Counted from the stretch's first letter, positions 19,934 through 57,228 are shown. The stretch: 64,000 bases of DNA from Luteirhabdus salina (GCA_025384855.1 JALAHT010000001.1:372001-436000); one strand, 5' to 3'. A program made the numbers and translations. The notes: generated from the sequence alone by a model not told the origin.

Positions 19934-22876
19934 GTGAAATCGCTACTTTATATCTGTTGCCTTTTTGTGGGCTTTTCACTAAGTTCACAGGCTCAAAACA
20001 GCACGTTAAAAACACAGGATTCACTGCTATTATCTTCGTATAAACAGAAAATTGCGCAATATGTAAATCCCCTTCCCGACAGTGCCCTTTACTACGCTCG
20101 CAACTATAAATCGGTTGCAAAAGACCTCGATTATGATATTGGAATCGCCGATGGCGATTATCTTTTGGGCGCCTGTTATAAACGCATTGAAAAGATAGAT
20201 AGCGCTGTTTTTTATTTTCAAAAATCGCGACGGCTCTCGCAGAAAATTCAATATGATTTGGGACAAGGTAGGGCCTTAAACAATTTATCGCGGACCTATT
20301 ATGTAATTGGTAAAATGGATAGTTCTATCGTTTCGGCTAAAGAAGCGATAGAGAGTGTCATCCCAATCGAGGATCCCAGCGCAAAACTCATACTAGCAGA
20401 TTCCTATATAGCCTTATCGACAGCCTATGCTCGAAAAAATATGATGAAAGAGGCGATTGAGCCACTATTGTTAGCCGATTCGCTTCATCGTAAATCACCG
20501 TTACGCCCCGATATCATTGCCGCTGCCTATCAAGCCTTGGGCAGTATCTACTTAGATTTGGAAGAATACGATTCTGCCGTCACCCAATTTGAAAAAGCCA
20601 ACAGTGAATTTTCAAAATTACCGGAAACGGTTGTTCCATTTTATCTGAATACCACCAATGTTTTTATGGGAAAAGCATATTTGGAAAATGACCAGCTTTC
20701 CAAAGCCGATAGCTTACTGAGGCAGACTTATTCTTACTTTACCCAAGCGGAGGATTTTCGCCTTGTTGCCGAAATAGCAACGTATTTAGGACAACTCGCC
20801 TTAAAGAAAAACGATCCTATTCAAGCAAATACTTTTTATGAAGAAAGCTATAAGCTACATAAGGCCAATGGTAGGCCTTACGAAGCGGGATTGGCCGCAA
20901 TCGAATTGGCAAACTTATCGCTTTCCAAAAATCAACCGGATAAAGCATTACAGTTTCTCAACGATGCCGAAACACTGAATGCAGAAGCGCAGAACAGTCG
21001 CTTACGTCAAGACATTCTCTTTAGTAAAGCGGAAGTATATAGTTTGAAAGGAAATTATAAGCTCGCATTTAATCTTAGTCGTCGTGCCAAAAAACTACAG
21101 GATTCCCTTCAAAACGTTCAAAATGCAGCCCAAATTAAAGAAATTGAAGCCTTATATGAAACTGAAAGTCGGGATCGAGAAATTGCATTGCTTACTTCCC
21201 AGAATGAACTGGCTGCCCAGCAAAAAAAGAATCAGCGCAATTTATTTGCAGCAGGTTTGGGCGTTACAACGCTGGCAGGTTTGTTTTTCTTCTTTCAATA
21301 TCGCAATCGACAGAAAACCACTCGCAAGTTGAAGGAGCTGGATCGCGCGAAGTCTACGTTCTTTGCTAATATCTCTCATGAATTTCGCACACCGTTGACG
21401 CTTATTAAAGGCCCTTTAGAAGATCAATTGGAACGGCAACAGCAACAGGATGCTTCACGGAAAAACCTTTTGAATGCGCATCGCAGTGCTGAACGGTTGG
21501 AGCGATTGGTAGAACAGTTATTGGCTTTGTCTAAGCTCGAGAGTGGGACGTTCAGTCTTCATGTTCAACCCGATAGCTTATATCGCTTTTTGAATGTTCA
21601 AGTGGAAGCGTTTCATTTTCTGGCAGCTGAACAAAACATCACCATCACGACCGATTTCAATCTAAATGAAGAAGAGGTTGATTGGTTTGATCGTGATGTT
21701 CTGGAAAAAATTTGTGTTAATCTGCTTGGAAATGCTTGCAAGTACACTCCGGAGAAACATTCCGTTCTGGTTGAAGCTGCAGTCGAAAAGGGATTTCTGC
21801 AACTTTCCGTTCAGAATACGGGAGCACACTTTAACGAACAACAACAGGCGAAGGTCTTTGACCGATTTTACCAAGTTGAACAGCACGGCAGCGGTTCCGG
21901 AATCGGCTTAGCCCTTACCAAGGAACTGGTCGAATTACACAAGGGCACTATTCATGTTGTTAGTGAAGCGAACGAAATTACGTTCCGAGTAGCACTTCCT
22001 GTAACACAATCCTATTTTTCAGAAAAAGAACAATTACATGAGCAATGGCATCTTTCTGATGATACAGAAATTATCCAACCTGAAATCGTTCCAGAAGTAG
22101 AAGAATTTTTATCAGAAGATGCCCCAGTTCTTTTGATTGTAGAGGATGCCAGGGATGTTCGTGAATACATTGCGACTATTTTTGAAAGCTCCTACAAAGT
22201 CATTACAGCAGAACAAGGCGAGGAAGGCTTCACGATGGCGAAAGAAGTGGTTCCCGACATCATTATTAGCGATGTCATGATGCCAATTTCAGATGGCTTC
22301 GAATTTACCCATAAATGCAAATCGCATCAGCTTACATCACACATCCCCATACTTCTTTTAACAGCAAAAGGCAAAACAGCCGATCAAATCGAAGGCTTGG
22401 AAAAAGGTGCCGATGCCTATGTAAAAAAACCCTTTAGTCCGAAACTTTTGAAAGCAAGAGTGGATAACCTTCTGGAAAACCGTCGAAAGCTCCATGAGCG
22501 TTTTTCCCAAGAATTGATTCTGGTTCCAAAAGAAATAAAAGTTTCATCTCAAGAAGAGAAATTTTTAAAACGGTTACAGGAGGTATTGGACAATCATGTA
22601 ACCGATCCTGATTTTACCGCTACAAAATTTAGCGAACAGATGGGAATGAGCCGAATGCAGCTTCATAGAAAGCTGAAAGGCATCATAGGAGTTAGCAGTA
22701 CGGAGCTACTAAAAGACCAACGCTTAAAACTTGCCAAAAATCTTCTCAAGGACAACAAAGCCTCTATTTCAGAAATTGGATATATGGTAGGCTTTAACGA
22801 TCCCTCCTATTTTAGTAAGTGTTTTAAACAGGAGTTCGGCTGCGCTCCTTCAGAATTTATAGTAACTAATTCATAA
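19934..22876 (+). CDS. Hybrid two-component regulator (TPR sensor, histidine kinase, receiver, AraC output)
   Basis: A 980-residue one-protein signalling system starting at GTG with a signal peptide (SLLYICCLFVGFSLSSQAQ). Order: periplasmic TPR repeats (about 40-410), membrane helix (about 436-455), HisKA with phospho-His in FFANISHEFRTPLTLI (about 482), HATPase with NLLGNACKYTP and GSGIGLALTK, a receiver domain with phospho-Asp in IIISDVMMPISDG (about 779), and an AraC helix-turn-helix (about 875-980, ISEIGYMVGFNDPSYFSKCF). Such hybrids usually control neighbouring genes; the co-directional envelope gene set downstream is the likely target, though I see no operator. Confidence 0.93.
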   Translation: MKSLLYICCLFVGFSLSSQAQNSTLKTQDSLLLSSYKQKIAQYVNPLPDSALYYARNYKSVAKDLDYDIGIADGDYLLGACYKRIEKIDSAVFYFQKSRRLSQKIQYDLGQGRALNNLSRTYYVIGKMDSSIVSAKEAIESVIPIEDPSAKLILADSYIALSTAYARKNMMKEAIEPLLLADSLHRKSPLRPDIIAAAYQALGSIYLDLEEYDSAVTQFEKANSEFSKLPETVVPFYLNTTNVFMGKAYLENDQLSKADSLLRQTYSYFTQAEDFRLVAEIATYLGQLALKKNDPIQANTFYEESYKLHKANGRPYEAGLAAIELANLSLSKNQPDKALQFLNDAETLNAEAQNSRLRQDILFSKAEVYSLKGNYKLAFNLSRRAKKLQDSLQNVQNAAQIKEIEALYETESRDREIALLTSQNELAAQQKKNQRNLFAAGLGVTTLAGLFFFFQYRNRQKTTRKLKELDRAKSTFFANISHEFRTPLTLIKGPLEDQLERQQQQDASRKNLLNAHRSAERLERLVEQLLALSKLESGTFSLHVQPDSLYRFLNVQVEAFHFLAAEQNITITTDFNLNEEEVDWFDRDVLEKICVNLLGNACKYTPEKHSVLVEAAVEKGFLQLSVQNTGAHFNEQQQAKVFDRFYQVEQHGSGSGIGLALTKELVELHKGTIHVVSEANEITFRVALPVTQSYFSEKEQLHEQWHLSDDTEIIQPEIVPEVEEFLSEDAPVLLIVEDARDVREYIATIFESSYKVITAEQGEEGFTMAKEVVPDIIISDVMMPISDGFEFTHKCKSHQLTSHIPILLLTAKGKTADQIEGLEKGADAYVKKPFSPKLLKARVDNLLENRRKLHERFSQELILVPKEIKVSSQEEKFLKRLQEVLDNHVTDPDFTATKFSEQMGMSRMQLHRKLKGIIGVSSTELLKDQRLKLAKNLLKDNKASISEIGYMVGFNDPSYFSKCFKQEFGCAPSEFIVTNS

Positions 22877-47129: not shown

Positions 47130-49742
47130 ATGAAATCCAAGCAGATACGTTCCCAATTTTTAGAATTTTTCAAGTCGAAACAGCATAAAGTCGTGCCTTC
47201 GGCACCCATGGTCATTAAAAATGATCCGACCCTGATGTTTACGAACGCAGGGATGAACCAATTCAAGGAATACTTCCTCGGGAATACCGAACCTAAAAAC
47301 ACACGTGTAGCCGATACCCAAAAATGTCTTCGCGTAAGCGGAAAACATAACGACTTAGAAGAAGTAGGGAAAGATACCTACCACCATACCATGTTCGAAA
47401 TGCTGGGGAACTGGAGCTTTGGCGACTACTTCAAGAAAGAAGCGATCGACTGGGCGTGGGAACTGCTTACTGATGTATACGGCATCGACAAATACACCTT
47501 GTATGTGACCATCTTTGAAGGAGATAAAGCCGACGGACTAGACCGCGATACCGAAGCCTTCAATTATTGGAAACAGCATATTGCCGAAGATCGCATTTTG
47601 AATGGCGACAAAAAAGATAACTTTTGGGAAATGGGCGACCAAGGCCCTTGTGGTCCGTGCAGTGAAGTACACGTCGACCTCCGTTCCGAAGAAGAAAAGA
47701 AACAAACACCCGGTCATGAATTGGTAAACCAAGATCATCCGCAGGTTGTAGAAATCTGGAACTTGGTTTTTATGCAATTCAACCGAAAAGCTGATGGCAG
47801 CCTTAAAAAATTACCTGCGCAACATGTGGATACCGGAATGGGCTTCGAGCGCTTGGCCATGGTACTTCAAGGCAAGAAAAGCAATTACGACACCGATGTA
47901 TTCACGCCACTAATTCGTGAAATCGAAGCGATTACCAACTCAAAATATGGCACCTCTGAAGAAACCGATATCGCCATTCGCGTGATTGCCGACCATGTTC
48001 GAGCGGTTGCCTTCAGTATCGCCGATGGACAGTTGCCTTCCAACAATGGTGCAGGATACGTTATCCGACGTATTTTACGTCGAGCGATTCGTTATGGCTT
48101 CACCTTTTTAAACAAAAAGGAACCCTTTATTTATCGCTTGGTCGATACCTTGGTGAAACAAATGGGTGACGCTTTCCCAGAATTGGTTTCAGAACGGAAC
48201 CTTATCTTCAATGTCATTCGTGAAGAAGAACAATCTTTCCTGCGAACACTCGATCAAGGCTTGGTATTGCTGGAAAATATCATCACCAACACCAAAGACA
48301 AAACCGTTTCCGGAAAGAAAGCGTTTGAACTATACGATACCTACGGTTTCCCAATCGACTTAACCGCATTGATTCTTCGAGAACGCGGTTATGAACTGGA
48401 TTCTGAAGGGTTTGAAAAGGAACTGCAAAAGCAGAAAGACCGTTCACGCCAAGCTACCAAAGTTGAAACAAGCGATTGGGTTGTATTGGATGACGATGCT
48501 GAAGAAGAGTTTGTAGGCTACGATTTATTGCAAACGCAGGTTAAAATTACCCGCTATCGCAAGGTTGAAAGCAAGAAGGAAGGTGAAATCTATCAACTGG
48601 TCTTCAACTTAACGCCTTTTTATGCTGAAGGTGGTGGACAGGTTGGCGACAAAGGCTATCTAGAAGCACCAAATGGTGAAGTCGTTTATATTATCGATAC
48701 CAAACGAGAGAACAACCTCATCGTTCACTATGCGAAAAATTTACCGCGCAATCCTGAAGGAACATTTCAGGCAGTTGTAGATGTTCGGTACCGGACGCGC
48801 ACTGCTGCCAATCATACCGCTACGCACTTGCTTCACCAAGCGCTACGAAATGTGTTGGGTGAACATGTGGCACAAAAGGGATCGATGGTGCATAGCCGAA
48901 ACCTACGGTTCGACTTTTCGCACTTTAGTAAGGTAAGCGACGAAGAGCTGCGCGAGGTTGAAGACTTTGTAAATGCTCGAATCCGGGAAGGAATTCCATT
49001 GGAGGAAAACCGAAACATCCCGTATCAGGATGCGATTGACCAAGGTGCGATTGCGCTGTTTGGCGAAAAGTATGGCGATAGTGTACGAACCATCAAGTTT
49101 GGAAAGTCGATGGAACTTTGTGGCGGAACGCACTTACCGAACACTGAACAGATTTGGCACTTTATTATTACTTCTGAAAGCTCAGTGGCTTCCGGTATTC
49201 GTAGGATTGAAGCGATTACGGGTGAAGCTGCCAAACAATATTTTATCGATCGAAGTGAAGCCTATTCGAAAGTAACACAAGTACTGAATAACGCCAAAGA
49301 CCCGGTGAAGGCAGTTGAAAGCCTTCAGGAAGAGAACCAACAGCTTCAGAAAGAAATTGAAGGCTTAAAAAAGGACAAGGCCAAAAATCTGAAAGGTGAC
49401 CTCAAGTCGGAGTTTAGCGACGTGAACAGCATTCAATTCTTGGCTAAAAAAGTGGATTTGGACGCTGCGGGCATGAAGGATTTGGCGTATGAAATGGGAA
49501 GTGAAATGGAAAATGCCTTTATCCTATTTGGTGCTGACAATGATGGCAAAGCGCTGCTTACTTGCTATATCTCGAAGGAACTGGCAAAAGAACGCGAGCT
49601 GAATGCTGGAACGATTGTTCGTGAGTTAGGAAAACACATTCAAGGTGGTGGTGGCGGTCAGCCGTTCTTTGCAACGGCAGGTGGTAAAAATCCAGAGGGA
49701 ATCGAAAACGCCTTGCAAGCCGCTAAAAGTTATATCGAATAA
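47130..49742 (+). CDS. alaS: Alanyl-tRNA synthetase
   Basis: An 870-residue class II synthetase of full length. Catalytic core with [15 protein letters not shown] and [24 protein letters not shown], the tRNA-recognition region (about 250-440), an editing domain with [12 protein letters not shown] and CGGTHL (zinc/editing site), and the C-terminal C-Ala domain preceded by a coiled coil. The C-terminus contains the expected [17 protein letters not shown]. The GSCFA gene starts two bases after its stop. Confidence 0.96.
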
Positions 49743-50766: not shown

Positions 50767-50814
50767 ATACGTCAATTGTCGTATTGAACAACGCTCCTGA
50801 TAGTTTCAATTTTG
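50767..50814 (+). promoter_or_regulatory. Operator-promoter of the outer-membrane gene (box 1)
   Basis: Inverted repeat ATACG-tcaattgt-CGTAT (50767-50784) overlaps the -33 TTG (50784-50786). After exactly 20 bases comes a -7 box CAatTTTG (50807-50814). The same arrangement recurs at 51362, 52219 and 56242. Confidence 0.75.
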
Positions 50815-50836
50815 TGACCTAACCAAATTAACTATT

Positions 50837-51361
50837 ATGAGAACATTTTTAATTGCGCTTTTGGCGCTTTGTGCATTTCAAACCTCCAACGCTCAAATTG
50901 AGGAAGGCAACATTTTAGTTTCCTTAGGAGTGGGATTAAGTCCAACATTTTATTCCGGTAATGGCTACGAATCTTCCACCCCACCTATTGAAGTAGCAGG
51001 CGAATATGCCTTTACCGAGGATATCACGGGCGGAATCTTTGCCGGATACGCTAGTGCTGAGTTCAGAAACTCAGGATTTGGATACGATTACACCTATACG
51101 TTATTTGGAGCCGTGGGGAACTACCATTTCGTGAATGAAGAAAGCTTTAATGTGTATGCTGGAGCAAAACTAGGATACGTTAGTATTTCTTCTGAGTCGG
51201 TAGGTACCAATAACGGCTTCAACTTTAGCGCCGAGGCCTCTGGCTTGCTATATGGTGGTCAATTAGGTGCGCGCTATTGGTTTAGTGACGCGATAGCCGT
51301 AAATGCGGAATTGGGATATGGAGTATCCATCTTCAAAGCTGGTGTTTCCTTCAAATTCTAG
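50837..51361 (+). CDS. Small outer-membrane beta-barrel protein
   Basis: A 174-residue secreted protein: signal peptide (LIALLALCAFQTSNAQ) then about eight amphipathic strands with aromatic ends (VEVAGEYAF, GGIFAGYASAEF, YNVYAGAKLGYVSI, ... GVSIFKAGVSFKF) and terminal Phe, typical of OmpW/OmpX-like barrels. It is preceded by an operator-promoter shared with the next genes, so it is probably a target of the downstream two-component system. Confidence 0.88.
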   Translation: MRTFLIALLALCAFQTSNAQIEEGNILVSLGVGLSPTFYSGNGYESSTPPIEVAGEYAFTEDITGGIFAGYASAEFRNSGFGYDYTYTLFGAVGNYHFVNEESFNVYAGAKLGYVSISSESVGTNNGFNFSAEASGLLYGGQLGARYWFSDAIAVNAELGYGVSIFKAGVSFKF

Positions 51362-51410
51362 AATACGGCAAATGTCGTATTGAACTCGATGCGTTCATTT
51401 CACACCTTTG
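51362..51410 (+). promoter_or_regulatory. Operator-promoter of the lipoprotein gene (box 2)
   Basis: AATACG-gcaaatgt-CGTATT (51362-51381), the most perfect copy, overlaps the -33 TTG (51380-51382). The -7 box CAccTTTG (51403-51410) follows after exactly 20 bases. Confidence 0.78.
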
Positions 51411-51464
51411 AAAAATAACCAAAACCATCTTCCCTAATGGGAGGAAGTAAAAACCAAAACAATT

Positions 51465-51986
51465 ATGAAGACTTTACAAAAAGCACTTTTAGTATTATTT
51501 ATGGCGGCAGCAGTAGTTGCATGCAAAAAAGATGATGACGGAGGCGACGATCCCTCTGGCGGAACTGGATCATTCACTGCCAAGGTAGACGGTAACACCT
51601 TTACGGGCATCGAAGGAACCGTTGTGGCTCAAGTAACCAGCAATGGTGGTGGCGAAGTCTTAGCAATTAGTGGAGGGACAAACGCTTCAGAGAACCTTCA
51701 AATGATTGTTCAAGGTTTCGATGGCGAAGGCTCCTATAATCTAAACTTTACAAGTATCGGTACATATAGTTATTTACCAGATCCGAGCAACCCAGATCCT
51801 AATACAGTAGTTGTTTACACTACCGTTGGAGATGCCCAGAGCAATAATGGTGAAGTGAATGTATCTAGCTACGATGGCACGACTATTAAAGGAACGTTTA
51901 GCTTTACGGGTTTCAACCTAGATGATAATGCTGATACTGTTTCCGTAACAGAAGGGGAATTTAATATTGAGGTCACCAATAACTAA
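51465..51986 (+). CDS. Small lipoprotein of unknown function
   Basis: A 173-residue lipoprotein: lipobox AAVVAC then a Lys/Asp/Gly-rich tether (KKDDDGGDDPSGGTG) and a beta-sandwich-like domain (SFTAKVDGNTFTGIEGTVVAQ ... TTIKGTFSFTGFNLD) of the kind found in many Bacteroidota DUF6252-like lipoproteins. Function unknown. It shares its promoter architecture with the genes on either side. Confidence 0.8.
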   Translation: MKTLQKALLVLFMAAAVVACKKDDDGGDDPSGGTGSFTAKVDGNTFTGIEGTVVAQVTSNGGGEVLAISGGTNASENLQMIVQGFDGEGSYNLNFTSIGTYSYLPDPSNPDPNTVVVYTTVGDAQSNNGEVNVSSYDGTTIKGTFSFTGFNLDDNADTVSVTEGEFNIEVTNN

Positions 51987-52040
51987 CCAACTAATTCTTC
52001 CATTATGAGAAATCTCAAGTGTTGAGGTTTTTACGTGGAG

Positions 52041-52076
52041 CCGGGAATGGAACATCGTTCTGTTTCCGGTTTTTTT
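52041..52076 (+). terminator. Terminator after the lipoprotein gene
   Basis: CCGG-gaatg-GAAC-atc-GTTC-tgttt-CCGG stem followed by seven Ts (52070-52076). This separates the lipoprotein gene from the propeller gene. Confidence 0.85.
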
Positions 52077-52093
52077 GCTTTAGGAATTTGAAA

Positions 52094-52172
52094 GGTGGCT
52101 GAGGTTCTCGAAGCCACCTGAAATATCGGATACCTAACTACCTTTATGGTGCCTTCGAGAGCCTCAGGCACC
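52094..52172. repeat. Pair of inverted-orientation palindromes with compensatory changes
   Basis: GGTGGCT-gaggttctcga-AGCCACC (52094-52118) and GGTGCCT-tcgagagcctc-AGGCACC (52148-52172). The second is an inverted copy of the first, and the stem change at position five is compensated in the opposite arm. REP/BIME-like. Together with the terminator these fill most of the 307-base gap. Confidence 0.85.
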
Positions 52173-52218
52173 AAAGCGTTCTAACTACTATCGACTAAAG
52201 ACAAATGACTTACAAAAG

Positions 52219-52266
52219 ATACGTCAATTGCCCTATTGAATTCGCATGCCAATTCCTTCACCTTTA
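52219..52266 (+). promoter_or_regulatory. Operator-promoter of the propeller gene (box 3)
   Basis: ATACG-tcaattgc-CCTAT (52219-52236), -33 TTG (52236-52238), exactly 20 bases, then CAccTTTA (52259-52266). Right arm and -7 box each have one deviation from box 2. Confidence 0.72.
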
Positions 52267-52293
52267 CATCATAACAACTAAGTACCCACGATT

Positions 52294-54156
52294 ATGAAAA
52301 CTTCAATTTTTACATCACTCTTGCTAAGTATGTTTCTGCTTAGCACCACAGTGTTCGGTCAAAAAGCCGAGCAGCCCGATTTTCGATATGATGTCGGAGC
52401 AAAAATCAACGAAATGACCCTTACCGAGGGCGGTACCATGGTCGTCGCTACCAACGACGGACTTGTAGGTATAAAACCGGGCAGCAACGAATTGCTCTTC
52501 AACTTCACCGATTATGGTCGCGTGAAGCCCGAAGAACTGTTTTATGTTCCACAAGCACCGTATGTAATTGTTGGTCAGACCGGTTTTGCCAATATGTCGA
52601 CCAAAAAAGCAGTTATCGATTATATCAGCGGTAAAAAATTATTCAGTACCGAAGATAACGGCTGGAAACAAGTTATGACCTGCGATGTTATCATGCCGCA
52701 AAATAAATTGGTGGTGAGCGGCCAGCGTCGTGCCGACGAAAAATATGCGTCGCAAGTAGCCGTATACGATCTTACTACTGGAGGTGAAGATTATCGCTTC
52801 AATTTAGTGGACCCAGGAAAAGTGACCATGAGAAATTATATGGTAAGCGGACGACCCCTATTGATGAAGGATAAATTACTTATTCCAACCAGCCAAGGGA
52901 TTATCGCCAAGTCGAAAACCGGTGAAACGCTTTGGGACAATGACCTTAAAAACATCGATTGGATGGTGGCAAATGAAGACGAGTCTGATATTTATGCGTT
53001 CGAAACAAACGACACCAATAAATGGACAAAGATCTATAAAGTTAGCCCGCAGGGACAGGAAGTTTGGAGCGACGATGCTAAGGTGAAAGGGGTCGTAACA
53101 AATTTTGAAATATTGCCACAAGGATTGGCCGTTGTAAGCAACACCTATAACCAAGGAAAAGGAATCTTGGCCGGAGCATCCGAGTCGAAAATCGCCATGT
53201 TAAGTGCTACCAATGGTGAAGATTTATGGGATAAGGCACCAAAAACGAAAGGCTATGTGCAGCATTTCTATATCATGGAGGATGGTATTCTCTTCGGAAT
53301 TCAAGAAGGCGGTATCAATAAAATCTCCTACGATGGAAAAACGCTATTTAAAAAGCCTTTGAAAACGGGTGAAAATATTCTTACCATGGCCGAAACGCCG
53401 CAAGGACTTATCTATATCACTTCCGAAGATGCTAATATTGTTAATTTGACAAATGGCGAACAGGTGTGGAAGAAGCCTTTAAAATATAAACGTGCCGATG
53501 CTATTAGCTCTACCTACGACAGCAAGAATAGCCGGTATCTAATTAGTGCCGATGACGAGCTATTTGCGGTAGATGCGAATTCAGGTGAAGTGTCTACCCT
53601 TGCCGAAAGCAAGTTCGAAGGAAAGGAAGATCCGAGCCATGTTGAAGTCAGAAATGATGGTATTTTACTGACCAGCGACCAGAACATGATGTTGTTGGAT
53701 TGGGATGGAAATGCAAAATGGCACGAATACTATCGTGCACCAGGTAAAAGCGCATTCGGAGCTATTTTATCAGGGGTTATGGCGGTAGCGACAGCGGCGA
53801 CGGCTATGGCTGCGTACAATGCCGCTAACCAAAATAGAAACAAATTAGGCGCCTATACCGATAGAGGTGAACGCTATGCCGATTTAGGCGACGGAATGGC
53901 AATGGCATCCGGTGCTTCGGTCGCGGAAATGCTCCGAAGGTTTAAAGCCACTGCCGCAACAGCGGATGCTCAGTTTGTCCTTACAAAATTAGATGATGGC
54001 GTGGGCTTGGTAAAGTTGAATAAGGACTCTGGTGCTATGGAAAAGGAAATTATACTGAAAGATAAAAAACCAGAATATCAAGTAGATGAAATTGCAGGAG
54101 TCCTTTACTATAAAGCCGACAACAATTCCATTTTTGCATATGATCTAACCAAATAA
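52294..54156 (+). CDS. Secreted propeller-type protein (PQQ-like repeats)
   Basis: A 620-residue secreted protein: signal peptide (LLLSMFLLSTTVFGQ) and repeated beta-blade units (MVVATNDGLVGIKPGSNELLF, QGIIAKSKTGETLWDNDL, SKIAMLSATNGEDLWDKAP, GINKISYDGKTLFKKPL, ANIVNLTNGEQVWKKPLKYK), as in PQQ/BamB-like propellers. Near residue 490-510 an Ala-rich hydrophobic stretch (GAILSGVMAVATAATAMAAYNAA) interrupts the propeller and could be a membrane-inserting hairpin. Function unknown; its promoter has box 3. Confidence 0.82.
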   Translation: MKTSIFTSLLLSMFLLSTTVFGQKAEQPDFRYDVGAKINEMTLTEGGTMVVATNDGLVGIKPGSNELLFNFTDYGRVKPEELFYVPQAPYVIVGQTGFANMSTKKAVIDYISGKKLFSTEDNGWKQVMTCDVIMPQNKLVVSGQRRADEKYASQVAVYDLTTGGEDYRFNLVDPGKVTMRNYMVSGRPLLMKDKLLIPTSQGIIAKSKTGETLWDNDLKNIDWMVANEDESDIYAFETNDTNKWTKIYKVSPQGQEVWSDDAKVKGVVTNFEILPQGLAVVSNTYNQGKGILAGASESKIAMLSATNGEDLWDKAPKTKGYVQHFYIMEDGILFGIQEGGINKISYDGKTLFKKPLKTGENILTMAETPQGLIYITSEDANIVNLTNGEQVWKKPLKYKRADAISSTYDSKNSRYLISADDELFAVDANSGEVSTLAESKFEGKEDPSHVEVRNDGILLTSDQNMMLLDWDGNAKWHEYYRAPGKSAFGAILSGVMAVATAATAMAAYNAANQNRNKLGAYTDRGERYADLGDGMAMASGASVAEMLRRFKATAATADAQFVLTKLDDGVGLVKLNKDSGAMEKEIILKDKKPEYQVDEIAGVLYYKADNNSIFAYDLTK

Positions 54157-54207
54157 AGACTAAACTTTGTTTAGCAGCCAATGGTATTGAGGAGTGTCAT
54201 TGGTTTG

Positions 54208-54247
54208 CAAAACCCCAATCGATTTACGAGCGGGGTTTTGATTTTTT
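54208..54247 (+). terminator. Terminator after the propeller gene
   Basis: Stem CAAAACCCC/GGGGTTTTG (54208-54240) followed by ATTTTTT. It separates the propeller gene from the sensor kinase gene. Confidence 0.88.
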
Positions 54248-54277
54248 AGTATTTTGGTAGCAACTAACCAACTGATT

Positions 54278-56242
54278 ATGAAATATAAACTTTTGCTCTG
54301 CACCCTAGTGCTGGCAACTTTTTTTGCTCAAGCACAATCCGTTCAACAGCAGATCGACAGTCTGATGCAATTAGCTGAAAAAAGTAACGACTCGGCGAAG
54401 CTTCGCATCTATAACCGTGTCAGTTTTTATTATATCTTCAACAATAAACCGAAGGCACAGGAACTACTAACAAAAGGCTTACGCCTTTCCAAAGAGCGGG
54501 ATGTACCTTTTTCAGAAACCGAAATAACCAACACCTACGGAATCCTTATGGATGTTTCGGGTAAAGCGGATTCGGCCCGCTTCTATTTTGAAAAGGCATT
54601 AGACCTAAGTAATGCTAGAAAGTACGATAACATCAAAGTGATGGCCATAAATAATCTCGGGATGTATCATTGGAATAGAGGCGAGTACGATACGGCGTTG
54701 GACTATTTTTTCCAGGCATTGGATTTTAGCCGGAGTGAAGAAGGCGATTGGGGAAATGACGCCGTTTACCTAAACAACATCGGTCTCATTTATCAGGAAA
54801 TGGGACAGTGGGATAAGGCGCTGGAATATCATAATGAGTCGTATGAGTACCGAAAGAAAAACAATGTTATAAATGAAATTCCTATTTCCCTAAATAACAT
54901 GGCCATCGTGTATAAGGAGAAAGACGATTTAACACTTGCTGAAAAAACGGCCAAAGAAGCCATTGAGGCAGCTGAATTCGCCAATGAAACCCAAACGGTC
55001 TATAATGCTATGAATACGTTGGCGAACGTGTATGTGAAAAAGGAAGAAGCCAATAAAGCAATTCCATTGTTAGAGGAGATCATTTCTGGTAGAAATAAAA
55101 CCAACATCGACCGGAGGAGCAATTTGTCTGCTATTTCAACTATCATAAATCTTTATAACCAAAATGGAAATTTGGAAGCTGCTCGCAGCTATGTGAAACA
55201 AGGAGAAGCATTGTTACAGGAGTTTTCCCTTACCGGAAATGCCGTTGCTGGTTTTTATCGAGATGCTGCGGAAACGAATTACAGAAGCAGCAACATCAAC
55301 GCTGGGAACGAGTATTTGGAGCGCTACGAATCGCTTCGCGATAGTATTTATTCTTCTGAAAGTGCCGAAAAACTAGCCGCACTGGAAACAAAATACAACG
55401 TTGCCGAGAAGGAACGCGATTTGGCCCAAACCAGAGCAAATCTAGCGGAGAAAGATCTCGAAGTGCGACGAAAAAACACCCTATTGTACGGAAGTTTTGG
55501 CTTAGCATTACTATTGGCCCTTATTGGCTATTTGGTCTATAGCCAACAAAAGCTGAAGAACCGACAGCTTCAGAAGGAAAGCGAATTACGATCGGCTCTC
55601 GCTCGAATTGAAACGCAAAATAAACTTCAGGAACAACGGTTACGCATTTCACGCGATCTTCACGATAACATCGGTTCGCAATTAACCTTTATCATTTCCT
55701 CCATCGATAATTTAAAATATGGATTGAAGGATGCGTCAAAACCTGTATTGGAGAAACTTAGCGGAATCAGTCAGTTTACTACTCAAACTATTTATGAGCT
55801 TCGCGATACGATATGGGCGATGAATAAAGAGAAAATTACAGCCGAGGACCTGCAAGGACGTATCAGCAACTTTATGGAGAAGGCGAGAGTTGCTTCAGAA
55901 GATGTGAATTTCAACTTCAATATTTCAGAAGAGATTGCTACCGAAACCACTTTTTCATCGGTTCAGGGTATGAACGTCTATCGCATTATTCAGGAAAGCG
56001 TTAACAATGCGTTGAAATATGCCGAAGCCAACAATATCAACGTTCACATCACTTCAGAGAATAAAAGCATTGTAACAAAAATTGAAGATGACGGAAAGGG
56101 ATTCTCTCCTGCAGAAGTAGTAGGTGGCAACGGCCTGAACAATATCAAAAAACGCGCTCATGATCTTGGTGGCGAAGCGACTGTTTCTTCTTCACCAAAA
56201 ACCGGAACAAAAGTAGAAGTCACTTTCCCGAAACCTGAATAA
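54278..56242 (+). CDS. TPR sensor histidine kinase (NarX/DesK class)
   Basis: A 654-residue kinase: signal peptide (LLLCTLVLATFFAQAQ), periplasmic TPR repeats (about 25-370), a coiled coil (about 370-400), a membrane helix (about 405-425), a second coiled coil, HisKA_3 with phospho-His in LRISRDLHDNIGSQLTFI (His462) and HATPase_c (NVYRIIQESVNNALKYA; DDGKGFSP; GLNNIKKRA). The partner is the LuxR-type regulator at 56575. The ATG at 54278 starts the signal peptide. No box-type operator precedes it. Confidence 0.93.
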   Translation: MKYKLLLCTLVLATFFAQAQSVQQQIDSLMQLAEKSNDSAKLRIYNRVSFYYIFNNKPKAQELLTKGLRLSKERDVPFSETEITNTYGILMDVSGKADSARFYFEKALDLSNARKYDNIKVMAINNLGMYHWNRGEYDTALDYFFQALDFSRSEEGDWGNDAVYLNNIGLIYQEMGQWDKALEYHNESYEYRKKNNVINEIPISLNNMAIVYKEKDDLTLAEKTAKEAIEAAEFANETQTVYNAMNTLANVYVKKEEANKAIPLLEEIISGRNKTNIDRRSNLSAISTIINLYNQNGNLEAARSYVKQGEALLQEFSLTGNAVAGFYRDAAETNYRSSNINAGNEYLERYESLRDSIYSSESAEKLAALETKYNVAEKERDLAQTRANLAEKDLEVRRKNTLLYGSFGLALLLALIGYLVYSQQKLKNRQLQKESELRSALARIETQNKLQEQRLRISRDLHDNIGSQLTFIISSIDNLKYGLKDASKPVLEKLSGISQFTTQTIYELRDTIWAMNKEKITAEDLQGRISNFMEKARVASEDVNFNFNISEEIATETTFSSVQGMNVYRIIQESVNNALKYAEANNINVHITSENKSIVTKIEDDGKGFSPAEVVGGNGLNNIKKRAHDLGGEATVSSSPKTGTKVEVTFPKPE

Positions 56243-56289
56243 TACGTCAGTTGCCCTATGGGATTCCAAAACCGTTTGCCTTATCTTTC
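56242..56289 (+). promoter_or_regulatory. Operator-promoter of the small protein and response regulator (box 4)
   Basis: ATACG-tcagttgc-CCTAT (56242-56259) lies directly after the kinase stop; the -33 position holds TGG (56259-56261), and 20 bases later is TAtcTTTC (56282-56289). The placement puts the transcription start near 56296, so the small ORF is most likely translated from the ATG at 56306. Confidence 0.62.
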
Positions 56290-56305
56290 AGAATTAAAAA
56301 GAAAA

Positions 56306-56563
56306 ATGCCGGGTCTTTATATCATAACTGCCTTCGTACTAATAAGCATAAGTTGCTTGGCATTTTTTCGTTGGAAAAAGGAAGCTATGGAAAAACAACA
56401 TCTACGTGTATTGATAAACCTTGCAGATAATTTCAATGAACACCAAGCACAGATCCACAAACGACAAACATCATTGCATCGCTACGATTTTTTACGGTAT
56501 AACCTGAGTGAAGCAATAGTGAAACAACCCAAAATAATTCTTGATAGCACCTCCAATACTTAA
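56306..56563 (+). CDS. Small single-pass membrane protein between kinase and regulator
   Basis: Not recognised. The 85-residue form starts at 56306 (MPGLYIITAFVLISISCLAFF) with one membrane helix (about 4-21), a basic segment and a helical tail. An in-frame ATG at 56258 gives 101 residues but lies inside the operator, so I prefer 56306. A small membrane protein between a kinase and its regulator could tune signalling, but this is speculation. Confidence 0.65.
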   Translation: MPGLYIITAFVLISISCLAFFRWKKEAMEKQHLRVLINLADNFNEHQAQIHKRQTSLHRYDFLRYNLSEAIVKQPKIILDSTSNT

Positions 56564-56574
56564 AGCGACTTCCT

Positions 56575-57228
56575 ATGCAGCCATTGAAAATTGCCATTAC
56601 CGACGACAACAGCTTTTTGATAAATGCAATCAAGGAGAAGCTTTCTTTTTTCGAGGACATTCACCTGAAGTGTACGGCAATAAATGGTAGCGACTTGTTG
56701 ACGCAATTGGAAAAAAGCCACAATGTAGATGTTATTTTGATGGACATCGAAATGCCCGTCCTGAACGGTATTGAAACTACCCAGATGGTGAAACAAAAAT
56801 ATCCACATATCAAAATCATAATGTTGACAGCCTTCGATAATGACGAACATATTTTTAATGCGATAAAAGCGGGTGCCGATGGCTATTTGTTGAAGGAAAT
56901 TCAACCTGATGAATTGTATAAAGGAATACAGGAAACCATGAATGGCGGGGCTGCGATGAATCCATCCATAGCCCTTAAGACCTTACGACTACTTCGTAAT
57001 CCGACGGCCGTTGAAAACCAATCCGATAAAGAAGAAATCACCTTATCTAAACGTGAAGTAGAGGTGTTGGAGCAGATTAGCAAAGGGCTTTCGTACACCG
57101 CTATTGCCGATAACCTATTTATTTCTCCCAGTACGGTTCGAAAACACATCGAAAACATCTATAAAAAGCTTCAGGTTCACAGCAAGATTGAAGCTGTGCA
57201 AAAAGCCAAACGCCATAATATCATCTAA
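56575..57228 (+). CDS. LuxR/NarL-family response regulator
   Basis: A 217-residue regulator with a receiver domain (phospho-acceptor Asp57 in ILMDIEMPVLNG; Lys in LLKEI) and a C-terminal LuxR helix-turn-helix (LSKREVEVLEQISKGLSYTAIADNLFISPSTVRKHI). It pairs with the kinase at 54278. NarL-type regulators bind inverted-repeat sites, so the ATACG-N8-CSTAT boxes upstream of three neighbouring genes and this one are the leading candidate targets. The box upstream suggests autoregulation. Confidence 0.93.
   Translation: MQPLKIAITDDNSFLINAIKEKLSFFEDIHLKCTAINGSDLLTQLEKSHNVDVILMDIEMPVLNGIETTQMVKQKYPHIKIIMLTAFDNDEHIFNAIKAGADGYLLKEIQPDELYKGIQETMNGGAAMNPSIALKTLRLLRNPTAVENQSDKEEITLSKREVEVLEQISKGLSYTAIADNLFISPSTVRKHIENIYKKLQVHSKIEAVQKAKRHNII

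Follow-up and report, generated by a model that had tools for sequence, protein, structure and literature searches.

Four operators of fixed promoter geometry at an envelope locus of Luteirhabdus salina and the regulon predicted for a TPR kinase/NarL-type two-component system

We analyzed a window of 64,000 nucleotides from Luteirhabdus salina (GCA_025384855.1 JALAHT010000001.1:372001-436000), in which a group of plus-strand genes encodes envelope proteins and a two-component system; all positions given here are counted from the first nucleotide of this window. The group begins with a 174-residue outer-membrane beta-barrel protein (50837-51361, PF13505) and a 173-residue lipoprotein (51465-51986), which barely passes the cut-off of the Riean_0653 family (NF052634, 57.4 bits for a cut-off of 57). 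Relatives of this lipoprotein match DUF6252, on which we found no paper in the literature; a fold search with the lipoprotein model found nothing beyond weak similarity to mycobacterial LpqH (E 4e-3, TM below 0.5), which was discarded. The next gene (52294-54156) encodes a secreted PQQ/BamB-like propeller protein of 620 residues (PF13360, PQQ_2). It contains an Ala/Gly-rich and hydrophobic insert, AILSGVMAVATAATAMAAYNAAN (window 53750-53850), which is unusual for a soluble propeller.

The signalling genes lie directly downstream. The sensor kinase gene (54278-56242) encodes HisKA_3 (H-box RISRDLHDNIGSQL, kept in the relatives), HATPase_c and TPR domains. Reading the protein sequence by eye, we observed a signal peptide, then the TPR repeats, then a single transmembrane helix, an arrangement that places it among the HisKA_3 kinases with a periplasmic TPR sensor; the repeats should thus be periplasmic, as in FimS. 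A small single-pass membrane protein of 85 residues follows (56306-56563), with the C-terminal motif QIxxRxxxLxxYxFLxYNLxEALxxQ, and then the response regulator (56575-57228), made of a receiver and a GerE/LuxR (NarL-type) HTH with the recognition helix region SPSTVRKHIENIYKKLQVHSK. Both domains of the regulator score well above their cut-offs (PF00072, 86.3 bits for 30.2; PF00196, 69.8 bits for 23.5), as expected of the NarL/FixJ (LuxR-type) family. Overall, the domain search agreed with the identities that the first-pass annotation had proposed for the barrel, the lipoprotein, the propeller, the kinase and the regulator. Elsewhere in the window (19934-22876), a 980-residue hybrid protein joins TPR, HisKA, HATPase, receiver and AraC-type HTH domains, and is a two-component system in one protein.

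Inverted repeats had been reported at four promoters of this group, and all four are present, with one start corrected from 51362 to 51363. Operator 1 (ATACGTCAATTGTCGTAT, 50767-50784) lies upstream of the barrel gene and runs into promoter 1 (50784-50814), formed by a -33 TTG (50784-50786), 20 bases and the -7 box CAATTTTG (50807-50814). Operator 2 (ATACGGCAAATGTCGTAT, 51363-51380) precedes the lipoprotein gene, with promoter 2 at 51380-51410 (TTG 51380-51382, 20 bases, -7 box CACCTTTG 51403-51410), and operator 3 (ATACGTCAATTGCCCTAT, 52219-52236) precedes the propeller gene, with promoter 3 at 52236-52266 (TTG 52236-52238, 20 bases, -7 box CACCTTTA 52259-52266). Operator 4 (ATACGTCAGTTGCCCTAT, 56242-56259) shares one base with the 3' end of the kinase gene, and promoter 4 (56259-56289) has TGG (56259-56261), 20 bases and the -7 box TATCTTTC (56282-56289). 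This last site had been assigned to the operon of the response regulator, which holds with the amendment that the 85-residue membrane protein comes first and the regulator second. The kinase gene itself has no upstream operator in this genome. All eight elements are on the plus strand.

The spacing of exactly 20 bases between the -33 triplet and the -7 box was found as described at all four promoters. The triplet is TTG at three of them and TGG at promoter 4, and in each case its first base is the last T of the palindrome. The letters conserved among the operators give the core TACGNCANNTGNCSTA, two inverted heptamers set two bases apart (7-2-7), and all strict sites have the NarL-type form TACGNCA-NN-TGNCSTA. 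In the repeat written as TACGNCA-NN-TGNCGTA, the right half is frequently TGCCCTA or TGCCTTA. The conservation of the central eight bases, also claimed before, is real in all four repeats, because these bases include the inner portion of the palindrome. Flavobacterial sigma-A promoters carry TAnnTTTG at -12 to -5, as established in F. psychrophilum (PMC9723704), and, measured in this way, the repeat occupies -52 to -35 and has its centre at about -43.5. The transcription starts predicted from the same -7 element are near 50819 for promoter 1 and near 56294 for promoter 4. The site thus has a class II-type placement, at a fixed place adjoining or overlapping the -35/-33 element. Moreover, the first base of the -7 box is C instead of T at 73 of 114 sites, giving CAnnTTTG in most of them, which fits promoters needing an activator.

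We searched the 3.15-Mb genome for the core and found four exact matches, all at the claimed promoters, so that the motif is not randomly distributed. Places with one mismatch elsewhere in the genome were at the level of the reversed control, and the combined operator and promoter pattern matched without mismatch only at the four window sites. The looser pattern ATACG-N8-CSTAT is unspecific: allowing up to two mismatches, it matches 117 times in the window, and it gains its specificity from the added CA..TG core. One exact match to the loose pattern inside alaS (48056-48073) has neither this core nor a promoter and was set aside as a chance match.

Conservation was followed in 80 named loci obtained from a regulator scan (Altibacter, Aequorivita, Ulvibacter, Marixanthomonas, Dokdonia and others), where the genes typically run from alaS through GSCFA, the lipoprotein, the propeller, one TPR kinase or two, the small membrane protein and the regulator to metK. 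As had been anticipated for orthologous loci, the strict site and the same spacing are kept in 57 of these 80, mainly before the genes of the DUF6252/Riean_0653 lipoprotein, the PQQ propeller, the small membrane protein and the regulator. Many marine flavobacteria have the operator before these envelope genes. In most of the loci without a strict match, a variant such as ATAAGGCAATTGCCTTAT or ATACGACATATTACGTAT occupies that position upstream of the same genes. About ten loci with the regulator have no recognisable site (L146, L151, L153, L158, L160, L204-L209), and a de novo scan for palindromes of the same geometry in regulator-bearing loci without a strict site returned a single one, which had been seen previously. 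Among 142 unique, slightly looser sites, 107 have the start of TTTG exactly 27 bases past the core, for a background of 0.8% per position. Two full TPR kinases with one regulator are found at L081, L082, L088, L089, L097, L131, L149, L150 and L159; the window has one kinase.

The distribution of the sites follows that of the regulator. The response regulator is present in 76 of 299 genomes of the family, and the composite operator-promoter pattern occurs in 39 of the 299, all of them with the regulator (nominal P 5e-28); the reversed control of this pattern gave zero matches. Across the class, six of 395 genomes, L. salina included, have the composite pattern, and all six have a relative of the regulator, while only 42 of the 395 have one at a comparable level (nominal P 1e-5 without L. 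salina). The relatives in genomes with the composite site are 48-68% identical. Both P values overstate independence, given the kinship of the genomes and the linkage of most sites to the regulator gene; these same loci also served to train the position weight matrix. Singleton sites were found in five genomes without the regulator (E 1e-65), and none of the five has the full promoter geometry.

Most sites lie within about 10 kb of the regulator gene. Since such linkage could account for much of the co-occurrence, the unlinked sites matter most. In Dokdonia sinensis, the contig of the regulator has a site just past this gene; another contig, without the regulator, carries the lipoprotein, a second target, the small protein and the kinase beside alaS, and strict sites precede the first two of these genes. 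In a genome of another family (G142), one site stands immediately before the gene of the regulator (50% identity), and two others are more than 1 Mb from it. One of these two precedes a remote relative of the lipoprotein (HMM E 1e-5) and the other a secreted protein of 310 residues. A 40%-identical relative of the latter, in G113 of a third family, likewise carries the site, yet the regulator match in G113 is a fragment with a different helix. The description of the regulon as self-contained is thus true for L. salina and does not extend to relatives with sites on other contigs or more than 1 Mb off.

Other genomes have the operator before other genes. In G682, three identical sites precede genes for lipoprotein-like, TPR-CHAT-like and secreted proteins near a 68%-identical regulator, and G595 carries a back-to-back pair of sites in the interval that separates the regulator from a divergent operon (L250:8884-16458). 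By eye, the proteins of this divergent operon resemble FHA, Ser/Thr kinase, phosphatase and caspase-like proteins. An operator-bearing target of G682 (L249:10634-13540) encodes a secreted protein of 968 residues whose C-terminal domain is a CHAT protease. At L178, L179, L181 and L182, unlinked operators stand before weakly related secreted repeat proteins, and the same conserved gene of 707 residues adjoins the site at three of the four (L178, L179 and L181).

We then compared the recognition helix with the operator. The helix TVRKHIENIYKKLQVH is nearly invariant among the site-bearing regulators, and its TVRKH part is kept even by those of distant site-bearing genomes. With an SPST-type helix start, 191 of 216 sites have C at operator position 11, and position 13 is unconstrained; with a GT-type start (STGT, SSGT, SVGT or SPGT), one of 11 sites has this C, and all have G at position 13. 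The operator variants for the SPST/STGT comparison are CAATTGCC and CATTTGTC. The covariation between helix start and position 11 is significant (P 2e-8), for 11 GT-type sites that come from few lineages and a matrix trained mostly on the SPST type. It supports a direct reading of the operator by the regulator, and the four repeats are almost certainly the binding site predicted for this protein.

The small membrane protein may be a further part of the system. A reading frame of this kind, listed at 77-118 codons, occurs in 35 sources. It encodes a single hydrophobic helix in the N-terminal part and, in the C-terminal part, a motif of the YNLxEAL type; structure prediction gave one long and one short helix, and the protein has no match in Pfam or NCBIfam. 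Its gene lies near that of the kinase or the regulator (L082, L084, L086, L097, L114, L131, L132 and others), often immediately before it, and has its own site in several loci (L082, L131, L132). Our guess is that this protein of about 80 residues is a candidate third component that modulates the kinase or the regulator.

TPR-kinase/LuxR-type systems are widespread in Bacteroidota. The closest described case is FimS/FimR of Porphyromonas gingivalis, in which the kinase has periplasmic TPR repeats and the response regulator binds its target promoters and activates genes of surface structures (PMC1974823, PMC11053733). The L. salina system shares with it the periplasmic TPR sensor kinase and a regulator predicted to act on surface genes. 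However, its kinase scores 81.7 bits with the FimS model NF053520, far below the cut-off of 600, and no fimbrial gene stands behind any site here, the genes being those of the barrel, the lipoprotein, the propeller and the small protein with the regulator. We found no fixed-geometry operator in the parts of the FimS/FimR literature consulted, and beyond FimS/FimR the literature searched yielded no TPR-kinase/LuxR-type system with a defined operator; searches for the operator sequence or the system returned nothing relevant.

The second likeness is to E. coli NarL, which recognises 7-2-7 repeats, acts as an activator from position -44.5 (PMC7419079) and has a site abutting the -35 region, as observed here. 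The regulator of the window aligns with NarL (1a04) at 107.7 bits, whereas it reaches 136.4 bits with the NarL family model, for a cut-off of 250, and the kinase sensor is made of TPR repeats, in contrast to the nitrate-binding sensor of NarX. The NarL heptamer is TACYYMT, while that of the window is TACGNCA, with G at position 4 in all four sites where NarL has a pyrimidine. LiaS/VraR also pair a HisKA_3 kinase with a NarL-type regulator on envelope genes, and a sequence search of the PDB ranks VraR first, but these systems belong to another phylum, have other targets and lack the TPR sensor (72.6 bits with the LiaS model, for a cut-off of 450). Overall, the system resembles FimS/FimR and the single-site NarL promoters but is neither. 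Regarding the targets, transposon mutants of Riean_0653 in Riemerella anatipestifer, whose family the window lipoprotein barely enters, lose haemolysis although the protein itself is no haemolysin (PMC7881567). The Riemerella pair RAYM_RS09735/40 is an OmpR-type system and was dismissed as unrelated.

Taken together, the comparative evidence supports the reading of the four promoters as an operator regulon. In the mechanism that we propose, the TPR kinase (54278) would sense a periplasmic or envelope signal and phosphorylate the NarL-type regulator (56575), whose phosphorylated dimer would bind the TACGNCA-NN-TGNCGTA repeat beside the -33 element and activate sigma-A promoters with a weak -7 box. 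The barrel, the lipoprotein, the propeller and the operon of the small membrane protein and the regulator would be switched on, the last providing positive feedback. We infer activation because the repeat centre is near the NarL activator position and the -7 box is weak. We give a probability of about 0.86 to the statement that the regulator, once phosphorylated by the TPR kinase, binds these repeats and turns on a set of envelope genes together with its own; this estimate is drawn from sequence comparison.

A regulator that binds the same sites could also repress, its dimer covering the -33 element and blocking RNA polymerase, with the signal relieving or imposing the repression. The repeat does overlap the -33 TTG at every site, but only by its last base; moreover, repressor sites usually vary in place, whereas the fixed centre at -43.5 fits activator positions such as that of NarL, and the frequent C in the -7 box is that of promoters needing help. 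We consider repression unlikely. It is still harder to maintain that another DNA-binding protein reads the repeat and that the regulator is merely its neighbour in a co-inherited locus. The proximity of most sites to the regulator gene would suit such a neighbour, but the unlinked sites of Dokdonia sinensis and G142 persist together with the regulator, every class-wide genome with the composite site has its relative, the operator bases covary with its helix, and the repeat has the NarL-type form.

The constant spacing to the -7 box could instead suggest an extended promoter element of a special sigma factor, with no operator at all. This is highly improbable, as the -7 element is like that of ordinary flavobacterial sigma-A promoters and the 18-bp palindrome is dimer-like and tracks one regulator. 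Chance resemblance, to which the many loose matches in the window might point, has a negligible probability and is refuted by the four exact places of the core in the genome and by the empty reversed control of the composite pattern. Activation by the neighbouring regulator is thus the reading that we retain.

The system is probably class-wide. Tentatively, and at somewhat less than even odds, we picture an ancient Bacteroidia-wide envelope-sensing system built from a periplasmic-TPR kinase or a pair of them, a NarL-type regulator that reads a 7-2-7 code of its own, and a small membrane protein tuning kinase or regulator, in which the operator would have been retained across families and the targets changed (lipoprotein, propeller, MORN, TPR-CHAT, and FHA/kinase/caspase-like operons). 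The two variants of helix and operator offer a natural test of how NarL-type helices read DNA; judging from the deduced regulon, the signal would be one of the envelope. A conserved and unstudied system now has a readable predicted operator and a fixed promoter geometry, which allows target genes to be predicted from the sequences of many species.
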